Part shown: one piece after another, positions 8,970 to 60,093 of the stretch | Layout of the letters: every line of letters begins with the position of its first letter | How positions within the stretch are numbered: position 1 is the first letter of the stretch | Assembly (NCBI RefSeq): GCF_020177265.1 | Contig: NZ_JAIVMC010000001.1 | Location: forward strand, 806,001-870,000 | Direction of reading: 5' to 3' | DNA length: 64,000 nt | Source: Pseudooceanicola marinus | GTDB taxonomy: Bacteria > Pseudomonadota > Alphaproteobacteria > Rhodobacterales > Rhodobacteraceae | The notes under the pieces: generated by a model | Database searches by the model: none | What the model was told of the DNA's origin: nothing | Seen by the model: only the letters and a program-made list of their open reading frames with translations | Made by a program: the position numbers and the translations under genes

Positions 8970-9626
8970 TCAACGCAGGTTCACCCGCAGGACCGCCGCG
9001 CTGGCAAAGGGCAGCAGCGCCAGCGTGGCGCAGGTGATCCCGGCCAGCAGCAGCAGTGGCACCTCGACCGACAGCCCCCCGGCCCCGCGCCGGGCCACCT
9101 CGGCCCCGAAGATCAGCGTCGGCACGTAGAGCGGCAGCACGATCAGCGACATCAGCAGCCCGCCCCGTTTCAGCCCCACGGTCAGCGCCGCGCCGAAGGT
9201 GCCCAGCACCGACAGCGCGGGTGTGCCCAGCAGAAGCGACAGGAACAGCCACAGGTAGCCTGGGCCGGGCAGGCTCAGCATCAGCCCCAGCAGGGGGGCG
9301 GCCACCACCAGCGGCAGCCCGGTGGTGATCCAGTGCGCCAGGGCCTTGACCGTGACGATCCCCTCCATCGGCAGGGGCGCCGTGGCCAGCAGATCCAGAC
9401 TGCCGTCCTCGCGGTCCAGCGCGAAGATCCGGTCCAGCGACAGCAGGCAGGCCAGCAGCGCGCCGACCCACAGGATACCGGGCGCGATCCGCGCCAAGAG
9501 CGCACTCTCGGGGCCGACGCCGAAGGCCACCAGCGCCACCAGGATCAGGAAGAAGGCGAGGCCGAGGCCAAAGCCGCCCCCGGCGCGCACCGCCAGTTTC
9601 AGGTCCCGGGTCAGCAGCGCGATCAC
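8970..9626 (-). CDS. ccmB: Haem exporter membrane subunit CcmB
   Basis: A 218-residue protein with six predicted membrane helices and the CcmB hallmarks [11 protein letters not shown] and [14 protein letters not shown]. It is the permease partner of the CcmA ATPase. The start codon overlaps the ccmA stop by 4 bp (ATGA), so the pair is translationally coupled. No cysteine or metal site is seen, as expected. Confidence 0.96.
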
Positions 9627-10246
9627 AGGAAGGCCTCGTCGAAATCATCAAGCTGCGCGGCGGGCAGCGCGGCCTTCAGCGGGCCGACGTCCAGCACCTC
9701 TGCCTCGGGCAGGCCCAGCTCGATATGGGTGGCGATGACCGCCATGCCGCCGCGTGCCAGGTGACCGCGCACGGCCTCGGCGAACAAGGCGACCGATGCC
9801 GTATCCAACGACACCGTGGGTTCGTCCAGCAGCCACAGGGGCCGCCCCGTCACCATCAGCCGCGCCAGGCCCAGCCGGCGCTTCTGCCCGGCGGACAGCG
9901 TGCCCGCCAGCCGGTCGCGCAGCCCTTCCAGGTCGAAGGCGGCCAGCGCCGGGCCGATCTCGCGCAGCCCATGGACCGCAGCCCAGAAGGCCAGGTTCTC
10001 GGTCACCGTCATCTGCGCCTTCAACCCGTCTGCATGGCCGCCATAGGCCACGGCCTCGCGATCAAACGACATCTCGCCGGCCAGCGGCGGCTGCAATCCC
10101 GCGAGCGCCCGCAGCAGCGTCGTCTTGCCCGATCCGTTCGGTCCGCGCAGGATCAGCGCGCGCCCCGGCGCCAGGGTGAAACTCACCCCTGCCAGCAACG
10201 GCACGCCCCCACGGGCGACAGCCAGATCGGTCACTTTCATCTCCAT
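9623..10246 (-). CDS. ccmA: Haem exporter ATP-binding protein CcmA
   Basis: A 207-residue ABC ATPase that powers release of haem-loaded CcmE. Walker A is GPNGSGKT at residues 35-42, the signature is LSAGQKRR, and Walker B is LWLLDEPT. The short length is normal for CcmA. It is the first gene of the ccmABCDG run, preceded by a 348-bp non-coding gap. The haem chaperone ccmE and lyase ccmF are not in the window; ccmI is at 41.2 kb. Confidence 0.97.
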
Positions 10247-10594
10247 GGGAAATCCATAACCCGTTCACGCGAAGGGCAAAAGAACCGATCCGCGCCGCCC
10301 CGTCCTTGACATGGGTCAGGTGAGTGCTGCGGCGACGCCCTGGGCGAGCGAATTTCAAACCATCGAATGAGAGGAAGCGGCAGCGTCAGCTTACCCCACT
10401 TTGGCAACAGGCCCCCCGCCAGCCGCGTTCAACAGGCACGCCCGCGCCCCTCCCCCGAAGGCCCTCAAACTCTCTATTTGTTGGCAAAAGATATCCCGGG
10501 GGGAATTGAGCCGAAAGCGAAAGGGGGGCAGCGCCCCCTCTTTCCTTCCATTTGTCGCCCTCCAGCGACGGAGGGGGCAAAGCCCCTTCCCCGC
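10247..10594. other. Intergenic region with repeat-type hairpins, upstream of ccmA
   Basis: No gene is seen here. The stretch includes a hairpin GGGGGC-AGC-GCCCCC at 10524-10538, the exact reverse complement of the core hairpin of the repeats at 20650 and 28181. It also has ATATCCCGGGGGGAA near 10490 and GGGGCAAAGCCCC near 10573. These could end transcription from the Mth938-like gene on the minus strand. The ccmA promoter must lie between about 10247 and 10480, but no boxes stand out. Confidence 0.55.
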
Positions 10595-10948
10595 TCAGAC
10601 CGACAGAAGCGCCGCGGCAACCCGGCGGCCTTCGGACAGCAGGATGTTGAAGCTGCGGCAGGCCGAGGGCGAGGCCATGGGTTCGATGCCCACGCCCACC
10701 TCGTCCAGCGCCTCGCGCAGGGTCGCGGGCACCGGGGCCATAGTGTCGCCCGTGCCCAGCAGGATCACGTCCACATGGCCCGCCAGCGCCTCCAGCGTGG
10801 CGGCGTCCTCCAGCCCGCCCCAGGGACGGGTGGAATTGGCCAGGACCAGCACCGGCGCGTCGACCACCTCGCCGCCAACGCGGAAGAAGCCGGGTCCGTA
10901 GCCGTCGATGGGCCGGGCATCGTCATAGGAAATTTCGACAAGATCCAT
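10595..10948 (-). CDS. Mth938/NDUFAF3-like domain protein
   Basis: A 117-residue soluble protein with the Mth938-like fold, related to the mitochondrial complex I assembly factor NDUFAF3. The diagnostic block DVILLGTGD followed by LREALDEVGVGIEPM and a Cys-containing SPSACRSFNIL matches the family. A GGAGAG ribosome-binding site precedes the ATG. It sits 38 bp after the TSUP transporter gene, at the end of the yajC-secD-secF run. Bacterial function is unknown. Confidence 0.8.
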   Translation of the reverse strand: MDLVEISYDDARPIDGYGPGFFRVGGEVVDAPVLVLANSTRPWGGLEDAATLEALAGHVDVILLGTGDTMAPVPATLREALDEVGVGIEPMASPSACRSFNILLSEGRRVAAALLSV

Positions 10949-45499: not shown

Positions 45500-46501
45500 C
45501 TATGCCTGCGCGCCTTCTGGCGCGACCATCGCCATGGCCGCCTCGACCACTTCCGGGCCTGCCCCCGCGCGGTGGCCGTGTTCCGACAGGTGCCGCCGCC
45601 AGGCACGGGCCCCGGGGCGCCCCTGGAAGAGACCCAGCATGTGCCGTGTCACCTGCGCCAGCTTGCCCCCGGCCGCGACGTGGCATTCGATGTAGGGCAG
45701 CATGGCGCGCACCGCCGCCTCGGGGGTCAGGGGCGGCCGATCGTCGCCATAGATACGACGGTCGGCCTCGCACAGGATATTGGCCGGCTCATGATAGGCC
45801 GCCCGGCCGATCATCACCCCGTCCAGCCCTTGGGCCAGCAGATCCTCGGCCTGCGCCAGCGTGCCGATGCCGCCATTGATCGAGACATGCAGATCGGGGA
45901 AAGCCGCGCGCATGCGCAGCACCAGGTCATAGTCCAGCGGCGGGATGTCCCGGTTTTCCTTCGGGCTGAGGCCCTGAAGCCAGGCCTTGCGCGCATGGAT
46001 CGTCACCCGGCGCACGCCGGCGGCGCGGATCTTTTCCAGGAAGTCGGGCAACACCGCCTCCGGGTCCTGATCATCCACGCCGATGCGGCATTTCACCGTC
46101 ACCTCGGCGGGCTGGGCCTCGGCCATGGCGGCAACGCAATCAGCCACCAGTTCGGGGTGCTGCATCAGCACCGCGCCGAAGGTGCCGGACTGCACCCGAT
46201 CCGATGGGCAGCCGCAATTCAGGTTGATCTCGTCATAGCCCGCCTCGGCCCCCAGCTTCGCCGCCTGCGCCAGTTCCTCCGGCTCCGACCCGCCCAGTTG
46301 CAGCGCCACGGGGTGTTCCTCCGGGTTGAACTCCAGCAGGTGCAGCGCCCCGCCGCGCACCAGCGCGGGGGCGGTCACCATCTCGGTATAAAGCAGGGTC
46401 CGCGCCGACAGCAGCCGGTGCAGGTAGCGGCAATGACGGTCCGTCCAATCCATCATGGGTGCCACGGCAAGCCTTGACGCATATTTTGCATTTATTTTCA
46501 T
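45500..46501 (-). CDS. dusA: tRNA-dihydrouridine(20/20a) synthase DusA
   Basis: A 333-residue FMN enzyme that reduces U20/U20a in tRNA. The start of the conserved region is LAVAPMMDWTDRHCRY, the active-site cysteine lies in NLNCGCPSDRVQ, and FMN-binding residues are in NGGIGTLAQAEDLL and VMIGRAAY. The first ten codons (MKINAKYASR) are AT-rich and unlike the rest. They were probably supplied by an integrated element, together with a new promoter, when the element inserted at the 5' end. Confidence 0.94.
   Translation of the reverse strand: MKINAKYASRLAVAPMMDWTDRHCRYLHRLLSARTLLYTEMVTAPALVRGGALHLLEFNPEEHPVALQLGGSEPEELAQAAKLGAEAGYDEINLNCGCPSDRVQSGTFGAVLMQHPELVADCVAAMAEAQPAEVTVKCRIGVDDQDPEAVLPDFLEKIRAAGVRRVTIHARKAWLQGLSPKENRDIPPLDYDLVLRMRAAFPDLHVSINGGIGTLAQAEDLLAQGLDGVMIGRAAYHEPANILCEADRRIYGDDRPPLTPEAAVRAMLPYIECHVAAGGKLAQVTRHMLGLFQGRPGARAWRRHLSEHGHRAGAGPEVVEAAMAMVAPEGAQA
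46440..46501. other. Presumed attachment junction at the 5' end of dusA
   Basis: Core-like GC-rich dusA sequence changes to AT-rich sequence within this stretch (ATTTTGCATTTATTTTCATA at about 46481-46500), directly beside an integrase gene. dusA 5' ends are documented integration sites of prophages and islands. The crossover site is inferred to lie in the MMDWTDRHC-coding region; a second copy was not found in the window. Confidence 0.6.
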
Positions 46502-46765
46502 ATACTTAACCGCCACCTGCGCAGGCGGCCACCTAACGAGATTTCTCGTGATTCCCGGGGATTTTCTCCGGTTTCCGTGGGTTTTCCAAGACAGCTTGCT
46601 ACCGAGTAGCAACATCCATCCCGTCAATCATGTCCGAGCCAGAGCTCCGCCAGGGTCAGGCGAACCACCTGATTCTGGCTGCGCCTCGACTTACCCCATT
46701 CGGAGGGTTTCCGGCCAGATCGAAGTGACACCACGTTCTCGACGATCAACAAGAAAGGGACGGTC
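46502..46765. promoter_or_regulatory. Promoter and recombination-arm region of the integrated element
   Basis: This AT-richer stretch between dusA and the integrase has three inverted repeats: CCTGCGCAGG at 46516-46525, ACGAGA-TT-TCTCGT at 46536-46549, and TTGCTAC-CGA-GTAGCAA at 46596-46612. They are candidate binding sites for the integrase arm domain or an excisionase, or operators. The region must also supply the promoters of dusA and of the integrase; AAAGGGA lies 5 bp before the integrase ATG. Confidence 0.5.
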
Positions 46766-48076
46766 ATGTCTCACACGACCCAAGTTAGCTCCAAGAATCT
46801 ACTCCAGCAAATCTCGCGTGACCGCGCAGCGGGTTCTCCATTTGCCTTCCGCGCAGAACTGCCCGCCCAGCCGCGACCTACCGAAAGCTCCGGGACCAGC
46901 CAGAACGTCTCTTCGCGAAAGCCGAAACAGACCAAGCGGACGCAAGTTTCGACCAAAGCGGATAACTTGCCCACAGTAGAAGACTGTTCGGACGAACCCT
47001 TCATTTCGGCACGCGCTCCGAAAGACGGCCTCCCGAGATACTGCGTGCAAATCCGTCGCAGGACCGACAGTGGTCCAATCAATATAAGCAAGACGTTCAC
47101 CAGCCTCAAGGACGCCAAGAAGTGGCGAGATGACACGTTGGCCCAGATACAACTGGGTTTACTTGCTCCCAAGCAAGAAGAAGGCTCAAAAACGGCACCG
47201 CGTGTCTGCGATCTAATTCAAAAAAGGAAAGACAAGGGGCGGAGCGTCGAGAAGACCGCAACCCAAAATCTCGAATTTTGGATCAATCACCCACGCTGTC
47301 AGGAGCCAGCGTCTACCATAGACCTGAAGTGGTTCCAAAACGCGGCAGAGGACCTGCTCAAGTTGGAAATGATGCCGCAAACCGCGGCGACCTACATGAC
47401 AATGCTTGCTTCATCTTTGAAGTGGGCAGCTGAACGCGACGAGGATGTTCCATACGATGTCGTCGTTCGCGCCATGAAAGTATTGTGGCACGATGAAATC
47501 TTGGCACGGTCCGAGGAGCGTGAACGGCGCCCCACTCTCGATGAGCTCGACCTGATCTTTGACGCAGTGCTTGCGAACAAAAGGCAAAAGATACCTATTA
47601 TCACGATAAGTGTGTTCGCCATCTTCTCCTGTCGCCGCCTCAGTGAAATCTGTCGTCTTCGCTGGAGTGACCTAAACGTGACTGATCGAAAGATTCTGGT
47701 CCGGGAGATGAAGCACCCCCGCAAAAAGAAAACTAACGACGTTTGGGTGAAACTTACCCCTCAGGCCATGAAAATCATTCTTTCCATGCCCAGGACGTCA
47801 GAGTTTATTTTCCCATACAATCCGCGTTCAGTGGGCACCGCTTTTCGACGCCACCGACAGCGCGTCAAGATTGACGATCTGCGTTTTCACGATCTTCGGC
47901 ACGAAGGTATCAGCCGCCTGTTCGAGAAGGGAAAGCGTGACCATTTCGTGATGAAGACCTCAGGGCATCAGTCTCGAAGCTGCTTGGATCGGTATGTGAA
48001 CGTCGAAAAGAAGGGTGATAAATTCAAGAATTGGCACTGGCTGGACTGGGTTCTGGAATACTGGGCCAGCATCTGA
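46766..48076 (+). CDS. Tyrosine recombinase (phage/island-type integrase)
   Basis: A 436-residue site-specific recombinase. The N-terminal part is arm-binding-like with a basic segment. The catalytic domain (about 255-420) has R290 in FSCRRLSEI, H375-x-x-R378 in FHDLRHE, H401 in SGHQS and the nucleophile Y410 in CLDRYVN. All catalytic residues are therefore present and it looks active. Codon use is more AT-rich than the chromosome to the left. It is adjacent to dusA, fitting dusA-specific integrases. Confidence 0.95.
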   Translation: MSHTTQVSSKNLLQQISRDRAAGSPFAFRAELPAQPRPTESSGTSQNVSSRKPKQTKRTQVSTKADNLPTVEDCSDEPFISARAPKDGLPRYCVQIRRRTDSGPINISKTFTSLKDAKKWRDDTLAQIQLGLLAPKQEEGSKTAPRVCDLIQKRKDKGRSVEKTATQNLEFWINHPRCQEPASTIDLKWFQNAAEDLLKLEMMPQTAATYMTMLASSLKWAAERDEDVPYDVVVRAMKVLWHDEILARSEERERRPTLDELDLIFDAVLANKRQKIPIITISVFAIFSCRRLSEICRLRWSDLNVTDRKILVREMKHPRKKKTNDVWVKLTPQAMKIILSMPRTSEFIFPYNPRSVGTAFRRHRQRVKIDDLRFHDLRHEGISRLFEKGKRDHFVMKTSGHQSRSCLDRYVNVEKKGDKFKNWHWLDWVLEYWASI

Positions 48077-49347: not shown

Positions 49348-49411
49348 CCGCGATTTGCGGCACCACGAGGAGACCTCACCTTCGATGTGCAGGCAGAGCA
49401 AGGACGATCAA

Positions 49412-50500
49412 GTGTCGGAAGAACCGCAGACATCCACGCCGACAGACCTCTCGGCCTCAGCCAGGAACTACGCTCGCGAGGAAGATGCTCGCGCCATCGG
49501 ATCGAACGTCCTCGGGCTGATCAATATCTTCGGTCAGCACATAAACCTCGAGACCCTGGATGGCGTGACACTGGCCTACGACTATGGGGAAGCCCTGAGA
49601 GAACTGGATCGCGGAGTCGAGACATCCTCTGAGCTGTCGTTCAGCAAGGAGTGGGGCATCGGCATCGCGATGACCCCGGCGGTTCTTCGTGAGGGCGTTC
49701 TGAAATCGCACATCCTGTTCAATGCGGCCTTCTTGGAAGGCCTCATGGAGGAGCCCGACAGCGAGGCCTGCCAGGAGGCAGTTCACACCATCGCCCACGA
49801 ATGTGCGCATGTCGAAATCAACGCCATCAAGGATCGGCAATTTCCAGGCATGATCCTCCGTTACAGGGCGGAAACCTGGTATGAAGCGCTCCGCCTGGAG
49901 GTCATCGAGGCCTCGTGGGATGAGTATGCCGCCTGCCGTATCTCTGCAGGCTTCGGTAAAGACCCGTCCGAGAACTATCAGAGCGTCTTCCTGAACATCC
50001 TTGGCGAAGCGGGACCGAATGTGCGGGAGGCGATCCTGAAGTGTCGGCACGATGCCGATTACGACGCGCTCATGATCGAAGCGCAGCGGAACACCGGTAA
50101 CCTCGTAAAATATGCCTCCTACGTGCTGGGCACCGCCGATGGACTCGGTCAGGACATTGAAGCCGACCTTCGAGAGATATCGGAGGCCCTCGAGGGGCAC
50201 TGGTTCTCTCCGTTCTTCCAGCGTCTGCGCGACGCTCATCGCGTTCTCTGGGAGCGCTACGGGCAGTGGGAAAGCCTGACGGAGTTCGAGACGATCGCTG
50301 ATATCTGGCTCGAAATGCTCGCAGACCGCGGCGTGGAGGTCACCCCGCAGGAGGACGGCAGGATGTATGTGAACATCCCCTTCCGGGCGGATACCAGCTC
50401 CTTTCAAGCCATGATGTGGGGGATCCGGCAGGCGACCAAGGGGAGCCAGAGTTGGCAGATGCCAACCGATCAGGATTACAAGGATTCCGATCCGTCCTGA
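49412..50500 (+). CDS. Putative HExxH metalloprotein
   Basis: A 362-residue soluble protein without a recognised family. The helix AVHTIAHECAHVEINAI contains the zinc-metallopeptidase motif HExxH at H129-H133 (numbered from the GTG at 49412). A second acidic helix, SWDEYAACRISAG, follows at a distance suited to a third ligand. The start is uncertain: GTG at 49412 has AAGGA before it, and ATG at 49385 is the alternative. A parS-like palindrome lies inside its last codons. It is followed by the hypothetical gene at 50609. Confidence 0.65.
   Translation: MSEEPQTSTPTDLSASARNYAREEDARAIGSNVLGLINIFGQHINLETLDGVTLAYDYGEALRELDRGVETSSELSFSKEWGIGIAMTPAVLREGVLKSHILFNAAFLEGLMEEPDSEACQEAVHTIAHECAHVEINAIKDRQFPGMILRYRAETWYEALRLEVIEASWDEYAACRISAGFGKDPSENYQSVFLNILGEAGPNVREAILKCRHDADYDALMIEAQRNTGNLVKYASYVLGTADGLGQDIEADLREISEALEGHWFSPFFQRLRDAHRVLWERYGQWESLTEFETIADIWLEMLADRGVEVTPQEDGRMYVNIPFRADTSSFQAMMWGIRQATKGSQSWQMPTDQDYKDSDPS
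50451..50466. repeat. parS-like palindrome 1 (centre GA)
   Basis: GTTGGCAGATGCCAAC: the two 7-bp arms are perfectly inverted around GA. It lies in the 3' end of the HExxH gene. It has the same arms as the sites at 51367, 57501 and 60973. Confidence 0.7.
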
Positions 50501-51383: not shown

Positions 51384-52157
51384 TCAGTCCGCAAGCATGC
51401 GCTCGTCCTGCACGACCAGCAGCGTCAGGACCACATCGTCATAGATGCGCACAGTCTGTTCCTTGATCGGTATCTCGTCCGCCCATGGCTTGTCGAACCA
51501 GGCATCCGCTCCGCTCGCGCGCAGCATTCTGTCTTCTGGCCCTCCTCCGAACAGAACGTCGAACGCGAGACTGTCTTTGTCCAAGTGGTCCATGGGGAAC
51601 CATCGCTGGTCCACCTTCGGCGAGCGCGTGAACCACTTTCGCCCCTTCGGCGTATGACAGACGAGAAAGCTTGGCAGCGTGTTGCGCTCAACCAGCCGGA
51701 TCGCCGCGGCCGTCAGGCTCATGTCGAAGTCCTCGGCCATCGCCCTGATGGTTCCCATGTCGAACCGGTTGTTGTAGCCACGGAGGCTCTCACGGATCAG
51801 GAACTCGGGCATCAAGAGTTGCGCGGCAAAGCGGTCGGCAGCACGCTCTGGAAGTTTCCCGATCGTGCTGCCTGTCTCGATATCGTCAGACTGGCACATC
51901 AGGGTCTGACCCCGATGGCATTGCCAATGGCCGATCTCGTGTGCCAGCGAGAAACGCCTCCGACGAGGGTTTCCATCCGGCTTCAGGGAGATCTTCGCAC
52001 GGTTCCCCGCACCAATAATCCGGGCCTCGCACCCGTGCAGGTGGCGGTATTGAACGCGCGCGTTCTGCGTCCAGGCGATGGCCTCCAAGTCGATCTGCTC
52101 GGGGCGCGAGATCCCAAATTCCCTTAGCAACTCCTCTGGATCACGGATGGTGCGCAT
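51384..52157 (-). CDS. ImmA/IrrE-family metallo-endopeptidase
   Basis: A 257-residue protease of the family that cleaves repressors or anti-sigma-like factors in response to stress (ImmA of ICEBs1, IrrE of Deinococcus). The HExxH motif is AHEIGHW (H73, E74, H77) and the downstream acidic helix is ERAADRFAAQLLMP. It is the third gene of a coupled run with the sigma-like and acidic genes (start overlaps the preceding stop, TGATG). Its natural target is likely an operon partner or a nearby HTH regulator, which is an inference. Confidence 0.9.
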   Translation of the reverse strand: MRTIRDPEELLREFGISRPEQIDLEAIAWTQNARVQYRHLHGCEARIIGAGNRAKISLKPDGNPRRRRFSLAHEIGHWQCHRGQTLMCQSDDIETGSTIGKLPERAADRFAAQLLMPEFLIRESLRGYNNRFDMGTIRAMAEDFDMSLTAAAIRLVERNTLPSFLVCHTPKGRKWFTRSPKVDQRWFPMDHLDKDSLAFDVLFGGGPEDRMLRASGADAWFDKPWADEIPIKEQTVRIYDDVVLTLLVVQDERMLAD

Positions 52158-52567
52158 CACTCATCGTCATCCCAATCGTCACCCGTGAGCTCCTGCAGGT
52201 CCTCAAGGACCCCCTCCAGATCGCCGTCATGCTCCTTCTCGAAGTTTCGGGCGGCCATCGTCAGGTCAGGGTTGCCGGCAACGATCGCTGCGATCTGCGC
52301 GCGAAGCTCGTCCTGGGATTTTTGCTGCTCTTTCCGCTTCTGGCGTTCATTATGCAGGTCGACCGCCTTGCGAGCGCCCTGCAGGCGCCGCTGGCCACCC
52401 TCTGCGAGGGCAGATGCGAAGAGATCGTCCATTTCCTTGTCGAACGCGTTGATATCGACGCCCTCTTCCCGAAGCTCCGCCTCGATCTCGGCGTCGCTCA
52501 TGGCAAAGACATCCTCCACCATCTCGTCTTCGAGACGGGTCAATCCGGGGTCCTTCTTTTTCGTCAT
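52157..52567 (-). CDS. Acidic/charged protein between sigma-like and protease genes
   Basis: A 136-residue soluble protein with no recognised family. It is highly charged: an acidic N-terminal half (SDAEIEAELREEGVD), a basic centre (HNERQKRKEQQKSQDEL) and a very acidic C-terminus ending GDDWDDDE. It is predicted mostly helical and perhaps partly disordered. The ATG overlaps the sigma-like gene stop by 4 bp. Position between a sigma-like protein and a protease makes it a candidate antagonist and proteolysis target, but no sequence evidence proves this. Confidence 0.65.
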   Translation of the reverse strand: MTKKKDPGLTRLEDEMVEDVFAMSDAEIEAELREEGVDINAFDKEMDDLFASALAEGGQRRLQGARKAVDLHNERQKRKEQQKSQDELRAQIAAIVAGNPDLTMAARNFEKEHDGDLEGVLEDLQELTGDDWDDDE

Positions 52568-53121
52568 CGGTTATCACCTTGGGCCCGGTAGTTCTCGATT
52601 TTTCGATTCATTCTTCTTCGGACCGTTTCATATGAGGTCTTGCTTCCGAAGAGCTCGACCAGCTCTTCCGGCGTGCTGTTGTTGAGCAGACCTTCTACGA
52701 GAAGTTGCACTTCCCAATCGTCACCGCACAGTTCGATGGCCTTCGCGTGTTGCTCCTCACGGAACTCGCGGGCCTCGAGCGCGGCTTCGGTCGATGGTTC
52801 TTCATCCCGCCATTCTTCTCGTATCGAGAGCTCTTCGCGTTTGTCGGCGGCGACCTTTCTCCGCTTCGCGGCATTGGACGTGATGCTCTGCATCACCTTG
52901 TCCAGATGGCGCACGATATCGACGGAACGGTTCCATCGTCTCCTCCCCATTGCTGTGCTTGCGATGGCTTCATGCAGCAACCCCTCAGGGTCTCCCGCAA
53001 ACCAGGCGCGCCTTTTGGCTACTGCCGCGAGCCTTCGCTTCTGTTCGGCTGACAGGTTTCGAATTGCCTCGGTGGCGTCTTCGGGGGTGTAGAACTTGTC
53101 TACGTCTTTGTCGTCTTTCAT
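52564..53121 (-). CDS. Sigma-70-like protein (ECF-size)
   Basis: A 185-residue protein with a sigma-2-like N-terminal part (DPEGLLHEAIASTAMGRRRW and VDIVRHLDKVMQSITSN) and a C-terminal helix-turn-helix, STPEELVELFGSKTSYETVRRR, reminiscent of region 4. The match is weak but in both places at the right spacing. It leads the operon with the acidic protein and the ImmA/IrrE gene, and it diverges from the ubiquitin-like operon across a 319-bp gap. Confidence 0.7.
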   Translation of the reverse strand: MKDDKDVDKFYTPEDATEAIRNLSAEQKRRLAAVAKRRAWFAGDPEGLLHEAIASTAMGRRRWNRSVDIVRHLDKVMQSITSNAAKRRKVAADKREELSIREEWRDEEPSTEAALEAREFREEQHAKAIELCGDDWEVQLLVEGLLNNSTPEELVELFGSKTSYETVRRRMNRKIENYRAQGDNR

Positions 53122-53440
53122 GAGCCGCTCGATTGCCTGTCACTCGTATATGCTCCCGAGAAGCTGCCCATCGGACATCGTCTTCGGAATTTTTCCGAGG
53201 GCTTCGATTTTCGGGAGCGCCGACGGAGAGCACACCATACCAAGTTGTGCCCCAAAATTCACCGTCAATATCTGGTAGAAGCGCAGGCCTCGCCGTGCCG
53301 CTATAGGCCCGGTATCAGGCGACGCGAAACATTTTTGAGAATTTTCTGGCGGCAGCGTCCGATGGGCCGCCTGTCGGGAGCATAGGGGGCATAAGGCGCC
53401 TGCTGCGGGCGTCGAGCAGACAAGAAAAGGATTTGCTGCC
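53122..53440. promoter_or_regulatory. Shared promoter region, sigma-like operon / ubiquitin-like operon
   Basis: A 319-bp divergent gap, with AT-rich segments at 53180-53215 and 53330-53350 (GAAACATTTTTGAGAATTTT). No clear -35/-10 pair or inverted repeat was identified. It must contain the promoter of the ubiquitin-like operon and may be read by the sigma-like protein. Confidence 0.45.
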
Positions 53441-53980
53441 ATGTCTACCGAACCGATCGAAATCGAAGATCTCCTGGCCGCCCTGGAGGCCGGCCGCAAG
53501 CCCCGCGACCACGGGCCCTACAAGGTCCAGGTCGGCGACCACGACCTGAAGTTCACCGACGCCGTCATCGACGATCCGACGCCCACCGGCCGCCAGATCA
53601 TCGAGGGGGCCGGCTTCCGCAAGGCCGAGGAACATCTCGTGTTCCAGGTGCTGCGCAACGGTGAACTCGAGGAACTGCGCCTCGAGGAAACCACGGACCT
53701 GCGCCCCGGCCAGGTCGAGCGCTTCCTGGTCTTCCCGAGCGCGGAATCCTTCCGCTTCGACATCGATGGCAAGCGTCTCGAGTGGGGCCACAAGGTCATC
53801 AGCGGGCGCGTGCTCAAGAAGCTGGCCGGGGTCGATCCCGCCAAGTTCGCCGTTTGGCAGGTGATCCCCGGCAAGGATGACATCCTGATCGGCGACACCG
53901 ATCTGATCTGTCTCGCGGATGCGGGCCTGGAGCACTTCTTCACCGGCGTGCCCCAGACCACGGAAGGCGGTGCGGCATGA
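53441..53980 (+). CDS. Multi-ubiquitin domain protein (tandem ubiquitin-like)
   Basis: A 179-residue protein of the bacterial multi-ubiquitin family. Two beta-grasp-like segments can be laid out: about residues 25-98 (PYKVQVGDHDLKFTD to VERFLVFPS) and 101-171 (SFRFDIDGKRLEW to ADAGLEHFFTG). The C-terminus is TTEGGAA, i.e. a di-glycine (G176-G177) followed by two alanines that would need removal before activation. It is the first gene, and its last 4 bp overlap the E2-like gene. It is the likely modifier of the system encoded by the next three genes. Confidence 0.9.
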   Translation: MSTEPIEIEDLLAALEAGRKPRDHGPYKVQVGDHDLKFTDAVIDDPTPTGRQIIEGAGFRKAEEHLVFQVLRNGELEELRLEETTDLRPGQVERFLVFPSAESFRFDIDGKRLEWGHKVISGRVLKKLAGVDPAKFAVWQVIPGKDDILIGDTDLICLADAGLEHFFTGVPQTTEGGAA

Positions 53981-54357
53981 GCCTCCTCCCCCGTCAGGAT
54001 CGCCGCTACCTCGAGGGTCGCGGCCTCACCGTTCGCGAGGTCATCGAAGGCGGAAAGAAGGGCGTGATCCTCACCGGGATCACGCTGCCGGAAGGCAAGT
54101 ATCAGGTCGCCCAGGCGGATATCCTGATCCTGCTGCCGCCCTCGTATCCCGAGGTCGCCCCCGACATGTTCTACGCCGTGCCGCATCTGAAGCTCCTTGC
54201 CGGCCAGCGTGAGCCCCGCTGCACGCAGGCACGCCAGGCCTTCGATGGCCAGAACTGGCAGCGCTGGTCTCGCCACAACAACCAGTGGCGTCCCGGCACC
54301 GACGGCATCTGGACCATGCTGAAGCGGGTCGAAGAGGCCCTGGAGGTGGCGGCATGA
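53977..54357 (+). CDS. E2-like ubiquitin-conjugating protein (prokaryotic type)
   Basis: A 126-residue protein with the E2-type strand and loop LLPPSYPEVAPDMFYAVPHL, then REPRCTQARQAFDG and QRWSRHNNQWRPGTDGI, which are typical of the prokaryotic E2 family found beside multi-ubiquitin genes. C82 is the only cysteine and so the candidate thioester residue. The canonical eukaryotic HPN motif is not seen. It is coupled by 4-bp ATGA overlaps to the genes on both sides. Confidence 0.85.
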   Translation: MSLLPRQDRRYLEGRGLTVREVIEGGKKGVILTGITLPEGKYQVAQADILILLPPSYPEVAPDMFYAVPHLKLLAGQREPRCTQARQAFDGQNWQRWSRHNNQWRPGTDGIWTMLKRVEEALEVAA

Positions 54358-55763
54358 AGCGCAGCGACATCACCCTCCACGCCCGTCACCGCGACAAGCT
54401 GCAGGCGCTGCTCGCGCACCCCCGTGGGCACGAGGGCGCCGCCTACATGCTGCTCGGCAAAAGCGAGATCGCGCAGGACCCCTGGGACCTCGAGCCGCGG
54501 ACCCGTTACACCTCCTACGAGGTCATCGCGATCCCGCAGGAAGACCGCGTCGATGCCAGCGACAAGCATGTCACCTGGAACACCAACTCTTTCGCCCAGC
54601 TCTGTCGCCAGGCCAAGGAGGAAGGCCTGGTGCCGGCGATCGTTCATAGTCACCCGGGAGGCTTCGACGGTTTCTCGGACCAGGACGATCGCAACGAGCG
54701 CGACCTCTTCACCATGGCTTGGAACCGTAACGGCGAGGGGACACGCCTGGTGAGCGTCGTGCAGGTCGGTGACGGCCTCTACCGGGCACGGGTCTGGGAA
54801 GACGACATGACACCCCTGCCCTGTCACCGGGTGACCGTCATCGGCACTCGGCTCGAGATCCAGTCGACCGACGTGCCGACCCCGTCGGAAGCCTTGGCCC
54901 GGCAGGCACTGGCCTTCGGGCCGGAGGTCAACGGACTCCTCAAGCAGCTCTCCGTTGCCGTGGTCGGCTGCGGCGGCACCGGAAGCCCGGTGGTCCATCT
55001 TCTCGCTCGCCTCGGCGTGGGGCGCATCGTGGTCATCGACGATGACGTGGTCGAGCATTCCAACCTGAACCGTCTGTATGGCGCGACCCGAAAGGATGCC
55101 GAAAACGCGGTGCCCAAGGTCGACGTCATGGCGCGCGAGGTGACGATGATGGGTCTCGACGTCGAGATCCGGTCGATGAACAGCTGGGTGGATGCGCCGC
55201 ATATCCGTGACGCGCTGAAATCCTGCGACGTCATCTTCGGATGCACGGACGATCACGCCGGGCGCCTCTACCTGAACCGCGTGGCGCACTTCTACCTGAT
55301 CCCGGTCATCGATGTCGGGCTGGTCCTCATGCCCCGTGACGATGGTGAGCCCGGCCTCCTCGAGATGGCCGCGCGGGTCAGCGTGCTGTTTCCCACGACG
55401 GCGTGCCACGGCTGCCGCGGCACAGTCGATCGCGTCAGGGCTCGCGAAGAGGACCTCCAGCGATCGGACCCCGCCGAATATGAACGGCAGAAGACCGAAG
55501 CCTACGTCCGCGGCGGAGGTAATCCCGCGCCGGCCGTCGTGACCTTCACCTCCGAGGCCGCCACCATGGCAGTGAACGAACTTCTTGCCGGTCTCGTCGA
55601 CTTCCGCGGCGGCGGCGGATGGACATGGCAACGCTATCGCAAGCTCGACAAGGGTTTCGAGCGTTCGCAGGCGGCGCAGCCCCGGCCGGACTGCCCGGTC
55701 TGCGGCAGCGAGGAATACTGGGGCCTCGGCGACATCGAGCCGTTCCTGGATCGTATCGGGTGA
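54354..55763 (+). CDS. JAMM deubiquitinase fused to E1-like ThiF adenylyltransferase
   Basis: A 469-residue two-domain protein. Residues 1-150 form a JAB/JAMM metalloprotease: E27, HSH (H98, H100), S108 and D111 in HSHPGGFDGFSDQD. Residues 195-469 are E1-like: nucleotide motif GCGGTGS (205-211), D229/D230, N237/N239/R240 in HSNLNR, and CTDDHAGR (297-304). Zinc-type pairs are C351/C354 (CHGC) and C447/C450 (CPVC). Fusion of activator and processing protease in one chain suits a compact modifier system: JAMM could trim the GG-AA tail and also reverse conjugation. Confidence 0.93.
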   Translation: MKRSDITLHARHRDKLQALLAHPRGHEGAAYMLLGKSEIAQDPWDLEPRTRYTSYEVIAIPQEDRVDASDKHVTWNTNSFAQLCRQAKEEGLVPAIVHSHPGGFDGFSDQDDRNERDLFTMAWNRNGEGTRLVSVVQVGDGLYRARVWEDDMTPLPCHRVTVIGTRLEIQSTDVPTPSEALARQALAFGPEVNGLLKQLSVAVVGCGGTGSPVVHLLARLGVGRIVVIDDDVVEHSNLNRLYGATRKDAENAVPKVDVMAREVTMMGLDVEIRSMNSWVDAPHIRDALKSCDVIFGCTDDHAGRLYLNRVAHFYLIPVIDVGLVLMPRDDGEPGLLEMAARVSVLFPTTACHGCRGTVDRVRAREEDLQRSDPAEYERQKTEAYVRGGGNPAPAVVTFTSEAATMAVNELLAGLVDFRGGGGWTWQRYRKLDKGFERSQAAQPRPDCPVCGSEEYWGLGDIEPFLDRIG

Positions 55764-55768
55764 GTGGC

Positions 55769-56128
55769 ATGATGATCGACATTCTGCGGAAGAGCCTCGA
55801 GCTCTTCCGCCTCATTCCGCGAAGTGCCCTGGTCGCCAGGGTAACACCCACACACCCGACGCCGGATCAGATCGTGCCGGGTGAGATGACCATCGTGCGC
55901 GATGGCGTCGACAAATGGGCCTGCTTCCACTGCCCAGGTGGCTGCGGCGAAACCATCAAGCTGTCCCTCAGCAAGAACCGGAGGCCCAGGTGGACGGCCA
56001 TGTCAGACTGGCTGAGGCGCCCGACCATCTCGCCGTCAGTCCGCCAGACGAACGAGTGCCGGTGTCACTTCTGGATCCGGCAGGGGCGGATTGACTGGTG
56101 CAAGGACAGCGGTCCGGGGTCGGGATGA
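55769..56128 (+). CDS. DUF6527 cysteine/zinc protein of the ubiquitin-like operon
   Basis: A 119-residue protein with six cysteines and a histidine in a DUF6527 pattern: CFHCPGGCG (C52, C55, C59), then ECRCHFWIRQGRIDWC (C97, C99, H100, C111). WLRRPTISPSVRQT in between is also characteristic. It likely binds zinc and may serve as a substrate adaptor or ligase-like factor, by position only. It starts 5 bp after the E1-JAMM stop codon. Confidence 0.85.
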   Translation: MMIDILRKSLELFRLIPRSALVARVTPTHPTPDQIVPGEMTIVRDGVDKWACFHCPGGCGETIKLSLSKNRRPRWTAMSDWLRRPTISPSVRQTNECRCHFWIRQGRIDWCKDSGPGSG

Positions 56129-56210
56129 CCGCCAGCGTTCGGGTTGCGTTCGGGGACGCCCAAGGAGCCGGCGTGCCATGCTATTCCTGTCAGCAACATG
56201 GAGTGATCTG

Positions 56211-56904
56211 ATGGAGACGATGGAACGAGACGCCAAGTATATCGCGAGCCAGTGCAAGTATATCCGCAAGATGTTCTCTCTAACCCAGGAGAACCTGGCG
56301 GACGCCTCCGGGTTGACGGTCCGCACGATCCAGAAGGTGGAAAGCGGTCGGCACGTGCCCGGTGCCCGAGGTGCAGACCTTGCGAAGCCTCGCGCGCGGC
56401 CTCGGGTTCAACATCACGGTCTTCTCCAAGCCGACACCCGAGCAGGAGAAGCGCCAGCAGGAGGAAATGGAGCGCGCCCTGAAAAAGACGTTGCTCGTGC
56501 CGACATCCCCCATCAGGAAGCCCAACGACTTCTATTCCCGTAACCGCGAATGGCACGGGCTCCTGATCAATGCCGGAGCGGTGGAAGCCGACGATGCCCT
56601 CGAACTGACTGCTGCGATCTCGGACTGGATGACTGACCTGGACGGGATCTGGGATATGAGCAGCGCCGGCCAGAGACTCGAGTATTCGGCAGCGATCTCC
56701 GCGCTGTGCCTCGAGCTGGAAGGCCTCGGTCATCTCACGCACTTCGGTCACTTTCGACAGCAGCATATGCACGACAAGGGGATGATCCTGGATATCGGGA
56801 TGATCACCTTTCTCCCGAAGGCTGGCCACGACGGCGACCGCTACGGCATCGTCACCCTGGAGGACCCGTGGGAGGTTCCGGAACAGGATCGCCCCAATCT
56901 GTGA
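56211..56904 (+). pseudogene. XRE-family regulator split by a 7-bp tandem duplication
   Basis: The N-terminal HTH reads METMERDAKYIASQ, FSLTQENLADASGLTVR, KVESGRHVP. The frame then breaks because GTGCCCG is present twice in tandem (56355-56361 and 56362-56368). Removing one copy gives HVPEVQTLRSLARGLGF and a continuous 228-residue protein ending at 56904. The downstream part carries a conserved-looking regulatory domain. It is therefore either a recent loss or a reversible slipped-strand switch. It is the last gene of the ubiquitin-like locus and its likely regulator. Confidence 0.85.
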
Positions 56905-56959
56905 TTTGTCCGCGACCGGCATCCTATCTGACCGACAGCATCATCCGCGCACCTATCGC

Positions 56960-56984
56960 AGGGCCTGGCCGTATCGGCCGGGCC
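56960..56984. terminator. Terminator after the ubiquitin-like locus
   Basis: GGGCCTGGCCG pairs with CGGCCGGGCCC (one G-T wobble) around TAT, followed by CTACTTTT. It ends the plus-strand locus and sits against the stop codon of the minus-strand gene. Confidence 0.8.
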
Positions 56985-56985
56985 C

Positions 56986-57435
56986 CTACTTTTCGGAGCT
57001 GACCGTCATGAGACGACAGGCGAGCTGACGGTCGCCCCATCGGGCCGCGAAGGCCTCGCTCGTCGAGAACCAGCCGCCATCGTCGCCCTGACCGTGGTTG
57101 GCCCCCATACAAGAACACTGGCACTCATGGCCGATGGCGTTCATGCAGGCCGGAGCGCAGATCTCCTGCTCCTGGTAGGGTTGGATGACATAGATCAGCC
57201 CCCAGCGACGAAGACAGCGGTTCACGAGGTCATTGAACCAAGCCTTGGGAATTTCCCAGCATCCCAGTGCCGGGTTCCAGCTTGGGCGGATGCGCCGGCC
57301 ATTCCTGAGCCAGGTATAGTTGTCGTCCGCATAAGGAAGGCGGACCCTGACCCGCTCACCCTTGCCGTCACGGCGAAGCGCGACAGGGATTGTCTTCTGG
57401 TTCCATGCCGCCTTCAGGCGGTCTTCGTCCTGCAT
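56986..57435 (-). CDS. Hypothetical cysteine-cluster protein
   Basis: A 149-residue protein of unknown family. The first part is basic with KTIPVALRRDGKGERVRV and NGRRIRPSWNPALGCWE. A second part has a cluster CAPACMNAIGHECQCSCMG (six Cys and a His), probably a zinc or metal site, followed by a Gly/His segment. The ATG at 57435 is preferred because it follows the AT-rich promoter region and gives a normal start. It may bind nucleic acid, but this is only suggested by the basic, cysteine-rich composition. Confidence 0.6.
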   Translation of the reverse strand: MQDEDRLKAAWNQKTIPVALRRDGKGERVRVRLPYADDNYTWLRNGRRIRPSWNPALGCWEIPKAWFNDLVNRCLRRWGLIYVIQPYQEQEICAPACMNAIGHECQCSCMGANHGQGDDGGWFSTSEAFAARWGDRQLACRLMTVSSEK

Positions 57436-57619: not shown

Positions 57620-57964
57620 ATGCACGAAGAAATCACCGACGTATCAGGCAATGTATTCGACGATCTTGGTCTCGAAGACGCTCAAGAGATGAGCTTGAAA
57701 GCCGCTCTTGCAATCCAGTTGTCGTCGACCATCCGGTATAGTCACCTGACCCAAAGCGATGCCGGAGAGGCTCTTGGAATCCCTCAGTCTCATGTCTCCA
57801 AGATCATGAACGGGAAGCTTGAGGGCATCACCGCCGACAGGATTCTGCGCATGCTGGTGAAGCTTGGTTGCGACATCGACATCGTGATCAAGGCGAAGGA
57901 TACTGCCGGACCGGGACGTCTGGCTATCGAGACACCTCGAACGCGCATCTCGGTTGCTGCCTGA
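57620..57964 (+). CDS. XRE-type HTH protein, orphan antitoxin-like
   Basis: A 114-residue protein with one helix-turn-helix, SHLTQSDAGEALGIPQSHVSK and the following IMNGKLEGITADRILRML. Its layout matches HigA-like antitoxins and small DNA-binding regulators. No HigB/RelE-type toxin is found on either side. It is followed within 25 bp by the PrlF-like fragment, which suggests they could act together. Confidence 0.8.
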   Translation: MHEEITDVSGNVFDDLGLEDAQEMSLKAALAIQLSSTIRYSHLTQSDAGEALGIPQSHVSKIMNGKLEGITADRILRMLVKLGCDIDIVIKAKDTAGPGRLAIETPRTRISVAA

Positions 57965-59433: not shown

Positions 59434-60093
59434 TCAGGTCTGGACGACATATCCCAGGGTCCGTGCGGCACGAACCAAACTCGTTCTCAGCGCCATGTGA
59501 GACAAGGGCATGTCCACATGCGGCGCGGCCGGCATCGCGGACCTGCTTCTCTCGTAGAGCGCCAGCGACAGGCTGCTCCCTCCCGACATCGCGGAACGAT
59601 ATCGAAGCCCGTCCAAGGCAGGATAAGCGTCGTAGAAATCCCGGCTCCATTCCTTCGTGATTGCCCTCGGTCCACTGGACAGGCCGGCCGATGCTCCTGC
59701 CCGCGTTGTCCAGTGTCCCGTCAGGTCGAGAAGGGAAAGATCGCGGGTTGGCCGGACCACGGCCAAACGAGGGCCGCCCGTCGTCAGGTCGATCGTCCGG
59801 GTGTCCTGGAAAACCTCAGCCAGAGCCGAGGTAAACGCATGGGGGTCCGCTTCCACATCAATGGCATAGAGAATGGCGCGTGCTCCGATCGTCGGCCGTC
59901 CCGCGGCATCCGGCAGATGATGATCGAACCGCGACTCTGTCGGCCCGAAATCTCGAAAATGCGCAAATCCGGAGGCATGCCTGCTTGCGGAAAACCATAT
60001 ACGCAGGATCTCGCTGCCTGCGCCCAACCTGAATACGGCAGGCGGAATCGCCGACAGGGATGCTTTCCCCGGAGATCGTGGCAAATGGTCCAT
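59434..60093 (-). CDS. RES-domain toxin (NAD+ phosphorylase type)
   Basis: A 219-residue protein with the RES pattern: R22 in PPAVFRLGAG, E93 in TSALAEVFQD and S167 in LRYRSAMSG. RES toxins break down NAD+ and stop growth. The HTH antitoxin-like gene lies 17 bp upstream on the same strand, the standard Xre/RES order. A glance at the sequence suggests an intact protein. Confidence 0.88.
   Translation of the reverse strand: MDHLPRSPGKASLSAIPPAVFRLGAGSEILRIWFSASRHASGFAHFRDFGPTESRFDHHLPDAAGRPTIGARAILYAIDVEADPHAFTSALAEVFQDTRTIDLTTGGPRLAVVRPTRDLSLLDLTGHWTTRAGASAGLSSGPRAITKEWSRDFYDAYPALDGLRYRSAMSGGSSLSLALYERSRSAMPAAPHVDMPLSHMALRTSLVRAARTLGYVVQT

Follow-up and report, generated by a model that had tools for sequence, protein, structure and literature searches.

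What switches on an operon for ubiquitin-like protein tagging that is carried on mobile DNA? The question is raised by a locus in a 64,000-nucleotide stretch of Pseudooceanicola marinus DNA (assembly GCF_020177265.1, contig NZ_JAIVMC010000001.1, positions 806,001 to 870,000; hereafter the window, in whose coordinates positions are given). There, a four-gene operon of the Bub type at 53441-56128 is preceded, 319 bp upstream, by a trio of overlapping minus-strand genes (g1, g2 and g3; 51384-53121) that point away from it. A sequence-only reading of the window had singled out this operon as its best candidate for an unusual system. The four genes are present as it described; the divergent sigma/acidic/CapP-like trio upstream, more unusual than anything else in the locus, had been overlooked.

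We propose, with a probability of about 65%, that the Bub operon is under a dedicated positive switch consisting of a sigma factor, an anti-sigma factor and a protease. Somewhat less firmly, we think it probable that the trio acts by activation and not by derepression, and that, along with its own divergent promoter pair, it is traded among Bub, cyclic oligonucleotide-based antiphage signaling system (CBASS) and other operons. These proposals are based on sequence, namely on gene content, residues, gene order, and the promoter pair with its change alongside the trio allele in one group of related loci. The Bub operon itself is known; the trio controller is the part of the locus that looks new.

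The divergent trio

The trio and the two putative promoters between it and the operon are as follows.

51384..52160, minus strand: g3, IrrE/ImmA (M78) metallopeptidase of CapP type (HEIGH motif; Pfam Peptidase_M78, 4.8e-13; PADLOC capP)
52157..52567, minus strand: g2, acidic protein of 136 amino acids, candidate anti-sigma factor and protease substrate (C-terminal motif AARxxxxLSDxD; alignment of 15)
52564..53121, minus strand: g1, extracytoplasmic function (ECF)-like sigma factor of 185 amino acids (family profile against PDB; Sigma70_r2 in relatives; Foldseek)
53149..53176, minus strand: putative promoter ahead of g1 (autoregulation), matching that of Bub, 28 bases, GTCCGATGGGCAGCTTCTCGGGAGCATA (strict genome match; pair test)
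53357..53384, plus strand: putative sigma-dependent promoter of the Bub operon, GTCCGA-17-GCATA, 28 bases, GTCCGATGGGCCGCCTGTCGGGAGCATA (strict genome match; pair test)

The sigma homology of g1 was found at the level of its family only. A profile of 15 relatives matched the ECF sigma factor SigH in the PDB (2.9e-4), Sigma70_r2 was matched in 4 of the 15 family members, and four relatives are annotated as sigma-70. With an AlphaFold model of g1 made from 9 sequences (predicted local distance difference test score, pLDDT, 75; predicted template modeling score, pTM, 0.50), the Foldseek matches were led by SigH, SigE, AlgU, sigmaE and SigW, the best E value being 0.027. The g3 protein matched PADLOC capP at 3.6e-60 across residues 9-250, a score comparable to that (3.2e-61) of an ImmA protein adjoining a helix-turn-helix (HTH) gene in another Bub locus (L092; loci from other records are given by such numbers). 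For g2, nothing was above the Pfam cut-off and no PDB match was found, and none of the three proteins had an HTH, WYL, GHKL or STAS match in Pfam. We read the trio, from these family assignments, as a probable controller composed of an ECF-like sigma factor, a candidate anti-sigma factor and a CapP-type protease that sits beside immune-type operons.

A further island gene close to the trio (49355-50500) encodes a protein of 381 amino acids that has no confident Pfam family and carries a HECAH (HExxH) motif; it may be a second metallopeptidase.

A putative promoter pair shared with the Bub operon

The pattern GTCCGATGG-N12-14-GAGCATA was found to have two matches in the 4.55 Mb genome, which are exactly the two near-identical divergent sites, and the looser GTCCGA-N16-18-GCATA has five, both divergent sites among them; the control gave 0 in either case. 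In a blind pair test the two window sites agreed at 27 of 34 positions, the best of 30 shuffles reaching 21. The same test placed L091, L113, L114, L118, L119 and L017 above their shuffles, and L097, L120, L116, L115, L004 and L010 not above theirs; two long regions were skipped.

A consensus, TGTCCG-N16/17-CGCATA, was then scored on each strand in 20 trio loci, with near-copies (L091, L113, L010 and others) and L141, which has an insertion sequence (IS) element, left out. The boxes had been picked from the first loci, and the limit on spacing was set after all loci had been viewed. The summed site score exceeded all 1000 shuffles in 11 of the 20 loci. In seven others very few shuffles per 1000 did as well: one in L139, two in L120 and in L134, three in L121, five in L142, and 12 in L097 and in L004. 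Among the eight loci that were fetched after the boxes had been chosen (L134-L140 and L142), seven stood at no more than 5 per 1000, and the eighth, L136, reached 0 of 500 after its start was corrected. Spacing was identical on the two strands in 19 of 20 loci, where about half would be expected by chance. In loci added later, the shuffles as good per 500 numbered 3 (L153), 7 (L154), 11 (L123, the same locus as L142, which gave 6) and 1 (L152, which is window-like and at a contig edge). L134, L153 and L154 are similar to the L004 allele, so that they are not independent of L004. As controls, 11 Bub loci with other regulators did not exceed 16 of 24, which is roughly what the shuffles of trio loci gave. 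By its pattern, the pair has the look of an autoregulated ECF-type promoter that is shared with Bub, with -35 and -10 boxes at a spacing of 16-17.

Exchange of the trio together with its putative promoters

In L004-L008 the Bub DNA is 95.6-95.7% identical to that of the window and the E1 protein 98% identical, yet these loci have another allele of the trio and a promoter pair that belongs to it, the g1 of L004 being 22% identical to the window g1. Identity to the window starts at 53395, which is 11 bases past the -10 box of Bub. The L004 allele keeps the -10 box. Its -35 regions, CGAACGCG toward Bub and TGACTGCG toward g1, both deviate from the consensus, and 5 of their 8 positions are the same. 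Such a joint change of trio and promoter pair, as read from these alignments, is what would be left by a cognate sigma factor and its promoters.

Distribution and neighbors of the trio

A tblastn search of g3 against plasmids gave 68 records, and 24 of the best 40 had at least 80% coverage. Our set of 19 distinct plasmid loci consists of 18 of the 24 and L097 (79% coverage), the remaining six being further C. sphaeroides and B. barranii records. The order g1-g2-g3 was observed in all 19. The genes that face the trio are Bub in six loci (L091, L097, L113, L120, L134, in which E1 is missing, and L136), CBASS in four (L114, L117, L121 and L139, each with a PADLOC Cyclase match) and others in nine. 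The others comprise DUF2188 or a protein of 92 amino acids in L116, L135, L137, L140 and L141 (in the last behind an IS21 element), Beta_protein in L119, DUF3892 in L115, an unclassified gene in L138, and, in the Bradyrhizobium plasmid locus L118 (370-3803), genes for a patatin, an E1-E2-JAB protein of 755 amino acids and an LmuA-like protein, with no cyclase recognized. The 92-residue protein has no Pfam family and is encoded in L116 (3538-3816), L117 (3558-3836), L135 (3579-3857) and L137 (3592-3870), the copies being 65-72% identical to that of L137. Its gene comes first among those facing the trio, whether or not DUF2188 or CBASS follows, and in L117 it lies between the trio and the cyclase.

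In searches of genomes, g1 was found in 10 of 299 genomes of the phylum, the window's own included, with six of the matches weak (E 4.5e-6 to 5.3e-4). No g3 was found in the viral contigs searched. Other Bub loci carry other regulators: HTH+ImmA pairs in L092-L096, two-gene pairs fitting CapK+CapS in L101 and L103, and other genes in L098-L100 and L102. A single XRE-family protein matching the g3 profile was also observed near Bub in L102 (5387-6475) and in L095 (520-1620), and these are perhaps one-piece versions of CapH+CapP.

The Bub operon

The operon that the trio faces consists of four genes.

53441..53980, plus strand: bubA-like tandem ubiquitin-like modifier (Ubl), 179 amino acids (Pfam Multi_ubiq PF14452, two stretches, E 2.6e-29)
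53977..54357, plus strand: bubB-like E2, 126 amino acids (Pfam Prok-E2_E PF14462, 1.4e-49)
54354..55763, plus strand: bubCD-like JAMM-E1 fusion, 469 amino acids (Pfam Prok-JAB 2.4e-7, N-terminal; ThiF 3.2e-40)
55769..56128, plus strand: DUF6527 protein, 119 amino acids (Pfam PF20137, 8.2e-25)

The sequence-only reading had described four coupled genes at these positions and assigned them to these families, with 4-bp overlaps among the first three and the fourth starting 5 bp on. The gene junctions are as it described, and Pfam, PDB matches and conserved residues confirmed the families. In PDB sequence searches, the closest entries were the multi-ubiquitin proteins 8u38 (best, 6.3e-34) and 9d5b for the Ubl, Citrobacter BubB (9eae, 2e-12) for the E2 and Citrobacter BubCD (7e-44) for the E1. 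The same gene set was found in records from Rhodobacterales, Rhizobiales, cyanobacteria and enterobacteria, some of which have no annotated DUF6527 gene or have the Ubl and E2 fused. Because the JAMM residues are invariant in 16 of 16 relatives and the set recurs across records, the four-gene set is not a chance arrangement. Relatives of the operon were also sought in phage records, where just weak ThiF matches, in 4, were obtained.

Judged by its gene content, the operon is a Bub-type ubiquitin-like tagging system with the type 6e layout of Iyer et al. 2006 (PMC1779556), so that the expectation of an operon of the kind these authors had predicted was borne out, the nearest E1 and E2 structures being Bub proteins. 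It has the Multi_ubiq domains, a Prok-E2_E protein nearest to BubB, JAMM and E1 in one chain with their active-site residues, and a fourth gene for a Cys/His protein. Since the nearest relatives of known structure are Citrobacter BubCD and BubB and its layout is that of type 6e, the operon itself is already known: the Bub family has been named and structures are available (cited in PMC13373217), and the window operon is a further member.

Citrobacter Bub (PDB 9ea4, 9eae, 9eav) shares with it the Multi-Ubl, Prok-E2_E, JAMM-E1 and DUF6527 genes in the same order, as seen in the plasmid loci L101 and L103. In those two loci, however, the Ubl and E2 are fused, not separate, the E1 is 27% and 25% identical to the window E1, and two-gene pairs fitting CapK+CapS stand in place of the trio. 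In Bil (BilABCD), E1 and JAB are separate genes, whereas JAB and ThiF form one 469-residue protein in the window, which places the operon outside Bil. Type 6e, in the accessible part of Iyer et al. 2006, likewise has an N-terminal JAB-E1 fusion, one to three Ubl repeats, an E2/RWD-like protein without a conserved cysteine and a small Cys/His protein. The pattern printed there for the small protein is C-x3-C-x(35-38)-H-x2-C, and that of the window protein is C-x3-C-x37-C-x2-H.

Alignment of 16 JAMM-E1 proteins showed E27, H98, H100, S108 and D111 of the JAMM part, and G205, G208, T209, G210, D229, D231, N237, R240, K255 and D292 of the adenylation domain, to be invariant. The Ubl of the window has two beta-grasp domains and ends in TTEG-GAA. 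Among the nine separate Ubls listed, seven have TTEG near the end, followed by 0, 2 or 3 residues, and the other two end in QTEG (L102) and NPGR (L100); in the fused Ubl-E2 proteins a glycine is present at the matching place ahead of the E2 part (8 of 8). This C-terminal pattern fits trimming by the JAMM part.

Bub is reportedly dependent on an unusual ester intermediate. Among 16 aligned E2s, S98 and H100 are invariant and lie within a W-S-R-H motif (W97-S98-R99-H100). Residue C82, which had been proposed as the catalytic residue of the E2, was rejected as such: position 82 is cysteine in just 6 of the 16, alanine in 9 and glutamine in 1, in agreement with the E2 of type 6e lacking a conserved cysteine in the accessible part of Iyer et al. 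2006. As C82 is poorly kept, a thioester at this residue is unlikely as a general mechanism of these E2s.

The DUF6527 protein had been called a zinc protein. In an alignment of 12, H100 is kept in all and C55 in 11 (the remaining row is truncated); C59 (9 of 11), C97 (10 of 12) and C99 (6 of 12) vary. A metal site of the form C55-x3-C59 ... C97-x2-H100 is possible. The single PDB match of the DUF6527 profile (E 0.25) was taken as chance, and an AlphaFold model (pLDDT 54) was too poor and was not used.

Two further observations concern Bub operons and their flanks. In the closely related operon of Celeribacter plasmid pP73C (L091), an IS256 transposase gene at 9478-10749 splits the E2 from the E1. 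Directly downstream of Bub in the window, a gene that by eye resembles an HTH regulator (56211-56904) is frameshifted by a short tandem duplication, which is missing from the matching stretch in L004-L008 and L018.

Alternative explanations for the trio

The main rival explanation is that the trio is a repressor system of the CapH+CapP type, in which g2 would be a DNA-binding repressor that is cut by g3, and g1 would be an accessory. The match of PADLOC capP to g3 in full would be expected on such grounds, several other Bub loci carry an HTH+ImmA pair, and PADLOC capH weakly matches 10 of the 15 g2 relatives (best 5.8e-8), several of them along most of their length. The window g2, however, has no capH match and no Pfam HTH, the g1 family matches ECF sigma factors, and each of the conserved sites is a pair of asymmetric hexamers with a spacing of 16-17, the two sites pointing outward as promoters would, in place of a single palindromic operator; we therefore regard a repressor as unlikely. 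Were the trio instead an independent module (toxin-antitoxin-like, or serving plasmid maintenance) that rides beside immune operons, Bub would have a constitutive promoter of its own. That trios were sought in a plasmid collection, and that the genes opposite some of them are small unknown, DUF2188 or DUF3892 ones, would suit such a module. It is made improbable by the promoter pair, which matches in both directions and changes allele with the trio in L004-type loci while Bub stays nearly constant, and by the presence of Bub or CBASS opposite the trio in 10 of 19 plasmid loci. The idea that this is an ordinary Bub operon with an already described controller draws on the accessible part of PMC13373217, where CapW or CapH+CapP accompanies 219 of 544 and CapK+CapS 59 of 544 Bub operons. 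None of the three controller classes described there has a sigma-like gene, and the trio has none of the HTH, WYL, GHKL or STAS matches such controllers would bring, so that in its strict form this idea is refuted by gene content, and we give it very little credence.

Several observations weigh against the sigma-based switch that we favor. The window g1 itself has zero Pfam matches and no Foldseek match that reaches E 0.001, no profile identifies g2 as an anti-sigma factor, and the capH matches among g2 relatives are in keeping with a repressor. A likeness of the g2 tail to CapH tails, seen by eye, was not relied on; a motif profile of it did not recover the CapH-type proteins with an HTH in L095 and L096. 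In the consensus test L118 failed, with 110 of 1000 shuffles as good, as did L136 when first cut with a guessed gene start (836 of 1000, in place of the 0 of 500 obtained with the start taken from the g1 profile). L155 gave 100 of 500 with a left site only, and the right-hand site of L120 overlaps its left site. The trio is also rare: g2 was found in 2 of 385 genomes of the class and 6 of 390 of the order, the window's own being counted in both and one of the six being weak and having a stop. Near four g1 relatives (L143-L146), no recognizable g2 or g3 was present within the 16 kb read. Lastly, in a comparison with L018 from Roseivivax sediminis, a stretch of about 53245-56676, including the Bub promoter, differs, and the trio with its own promoter is almost identical; the boxes are unchanged. 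Of the 141 alignment columns that differ in the island, 131 fall in this stretch, which is a recombined segment. As the Bub promoter here went with Bub, the border of the swap is not fixed, and the promoter is not in every case transferred with the trio.

Proposed mechanism and comparison with known controllers

We hypothesize that, in the resting cell, g2 would hold g1 inactive. On activation, for which DNA damage or single-stranded DNA, the triggers reported for relatives, are the likeliest cause, g3 would cut g2 and so free g1, which would then direct RNA polymerase to both divergent promoters, amplifying its own operon and turning on Bub. The JAMM part would cut the Ubl back to the glycine at its C-terminus and the E1 would adenylate it, after which E1 and E2 would join it to targets, a step that the JAMM part could also reverse. 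We infer the role of g2 as an anti-sigma factor, its cleavage, the DNA-damage trigger, conjugation by this operon, its targets and an immune or antiphage role. For the last of these, the link to antiphage defense that had been drawn earlier stands for relatives (Bil, CBASS), and protection against phage by Bub itself is undemonstrated according to the accessible part of PMC13373217, a point that also counts against the proposal.

Known pairs of ECF sigma and anti-sigma factors that are opened by proteolysis include sigmaE/RseA and SigW/RsiW. The trio resembles these in its small sigma factor, adjacent overlapping partner gene and putative autoregulated promoter, and differs from them in that its protease is of the IrrE/CapP type and encoded in the same operon, and that its target would be an immune-type operon on mobile DNA. 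With the CapH+CapP controller of CBASS and Bub it shares a CapP-type IrrE/ImmA peptidase beside an immune operon; in the window, no HTH repressor was found, and an ECF-like sigma factor, an acidic partner and paired promoters are present instead. CapW and CapH are repressors that need to be removed. CapS is another such repressor, as described in the accessible part of PMC13373217. There, CapK+CapS is, like the trio, a modular controller located ahead of Bub, CBASS and further immune operons, but it consists of a GHKL kinase and a STAS-winged-HTH repressor, domains that are lacking in the trio, where a sigma factor and a protease are found. The accessible part of Iyer et al. 2006 mentions no sigma-containing regulator for type 6e, and the term sigma is absent from the text. 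No sigma/CapP controller was described in the titles and abstract openings that we searched, which are a small share of the matching literature.

The island at dusA

The locus lies in an island whose left end is marked by two genes.

45500..46627, minus strand: dusA (named by eye from the sequence; alignment with L018)
46766..48076, plus strand: tyrosine integrase of the island (Pfam Phage_integrase, 1.2e-18)

The mobile element at dusA that the sequence-only reading had suggested is thus present, as a tyrosine integrase island that adjoins the dusA 5' end. Alignment with L018 gave 73% identity in dusA (484 of 660 aligned columns), rising to >99% at about 46444, inside the dusA 5' end. From there to the window end identity is 99.6-100% per kilobase, except in kilobases 53000-57000 (95.9-97.8%), and the match continues at about 100% as far as about 80130 (window-relative), the end of the L018 contig. 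The right end of the island was not found: no repeat of the dusA 5' region of at least 15 bases was present in the window or the next 38 kb. One match of 13 bases lies at window-relative 71144, a position that still falls within the sequence in common with Roseivivax. The island also encodes an HTH_37 regulator (57620-57964) and a RES-domain protein (59434-60093), which are possibly parts of a toxin-antitoxin system.

Implications

If our reading of the trio is correct, a sigma switch would form a self-amplifying positive circuit, unlike the removable repressors, and CapP-type proteases would be wired to two kinds of transcription control. The promoter signature TGTCCG-16/17-CGCATA, combined with the test of neighboring genes, offers a route to immune operons of unknown kind. 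The timing of Bub expression, and hence the role of Bub, would become directly addressable.

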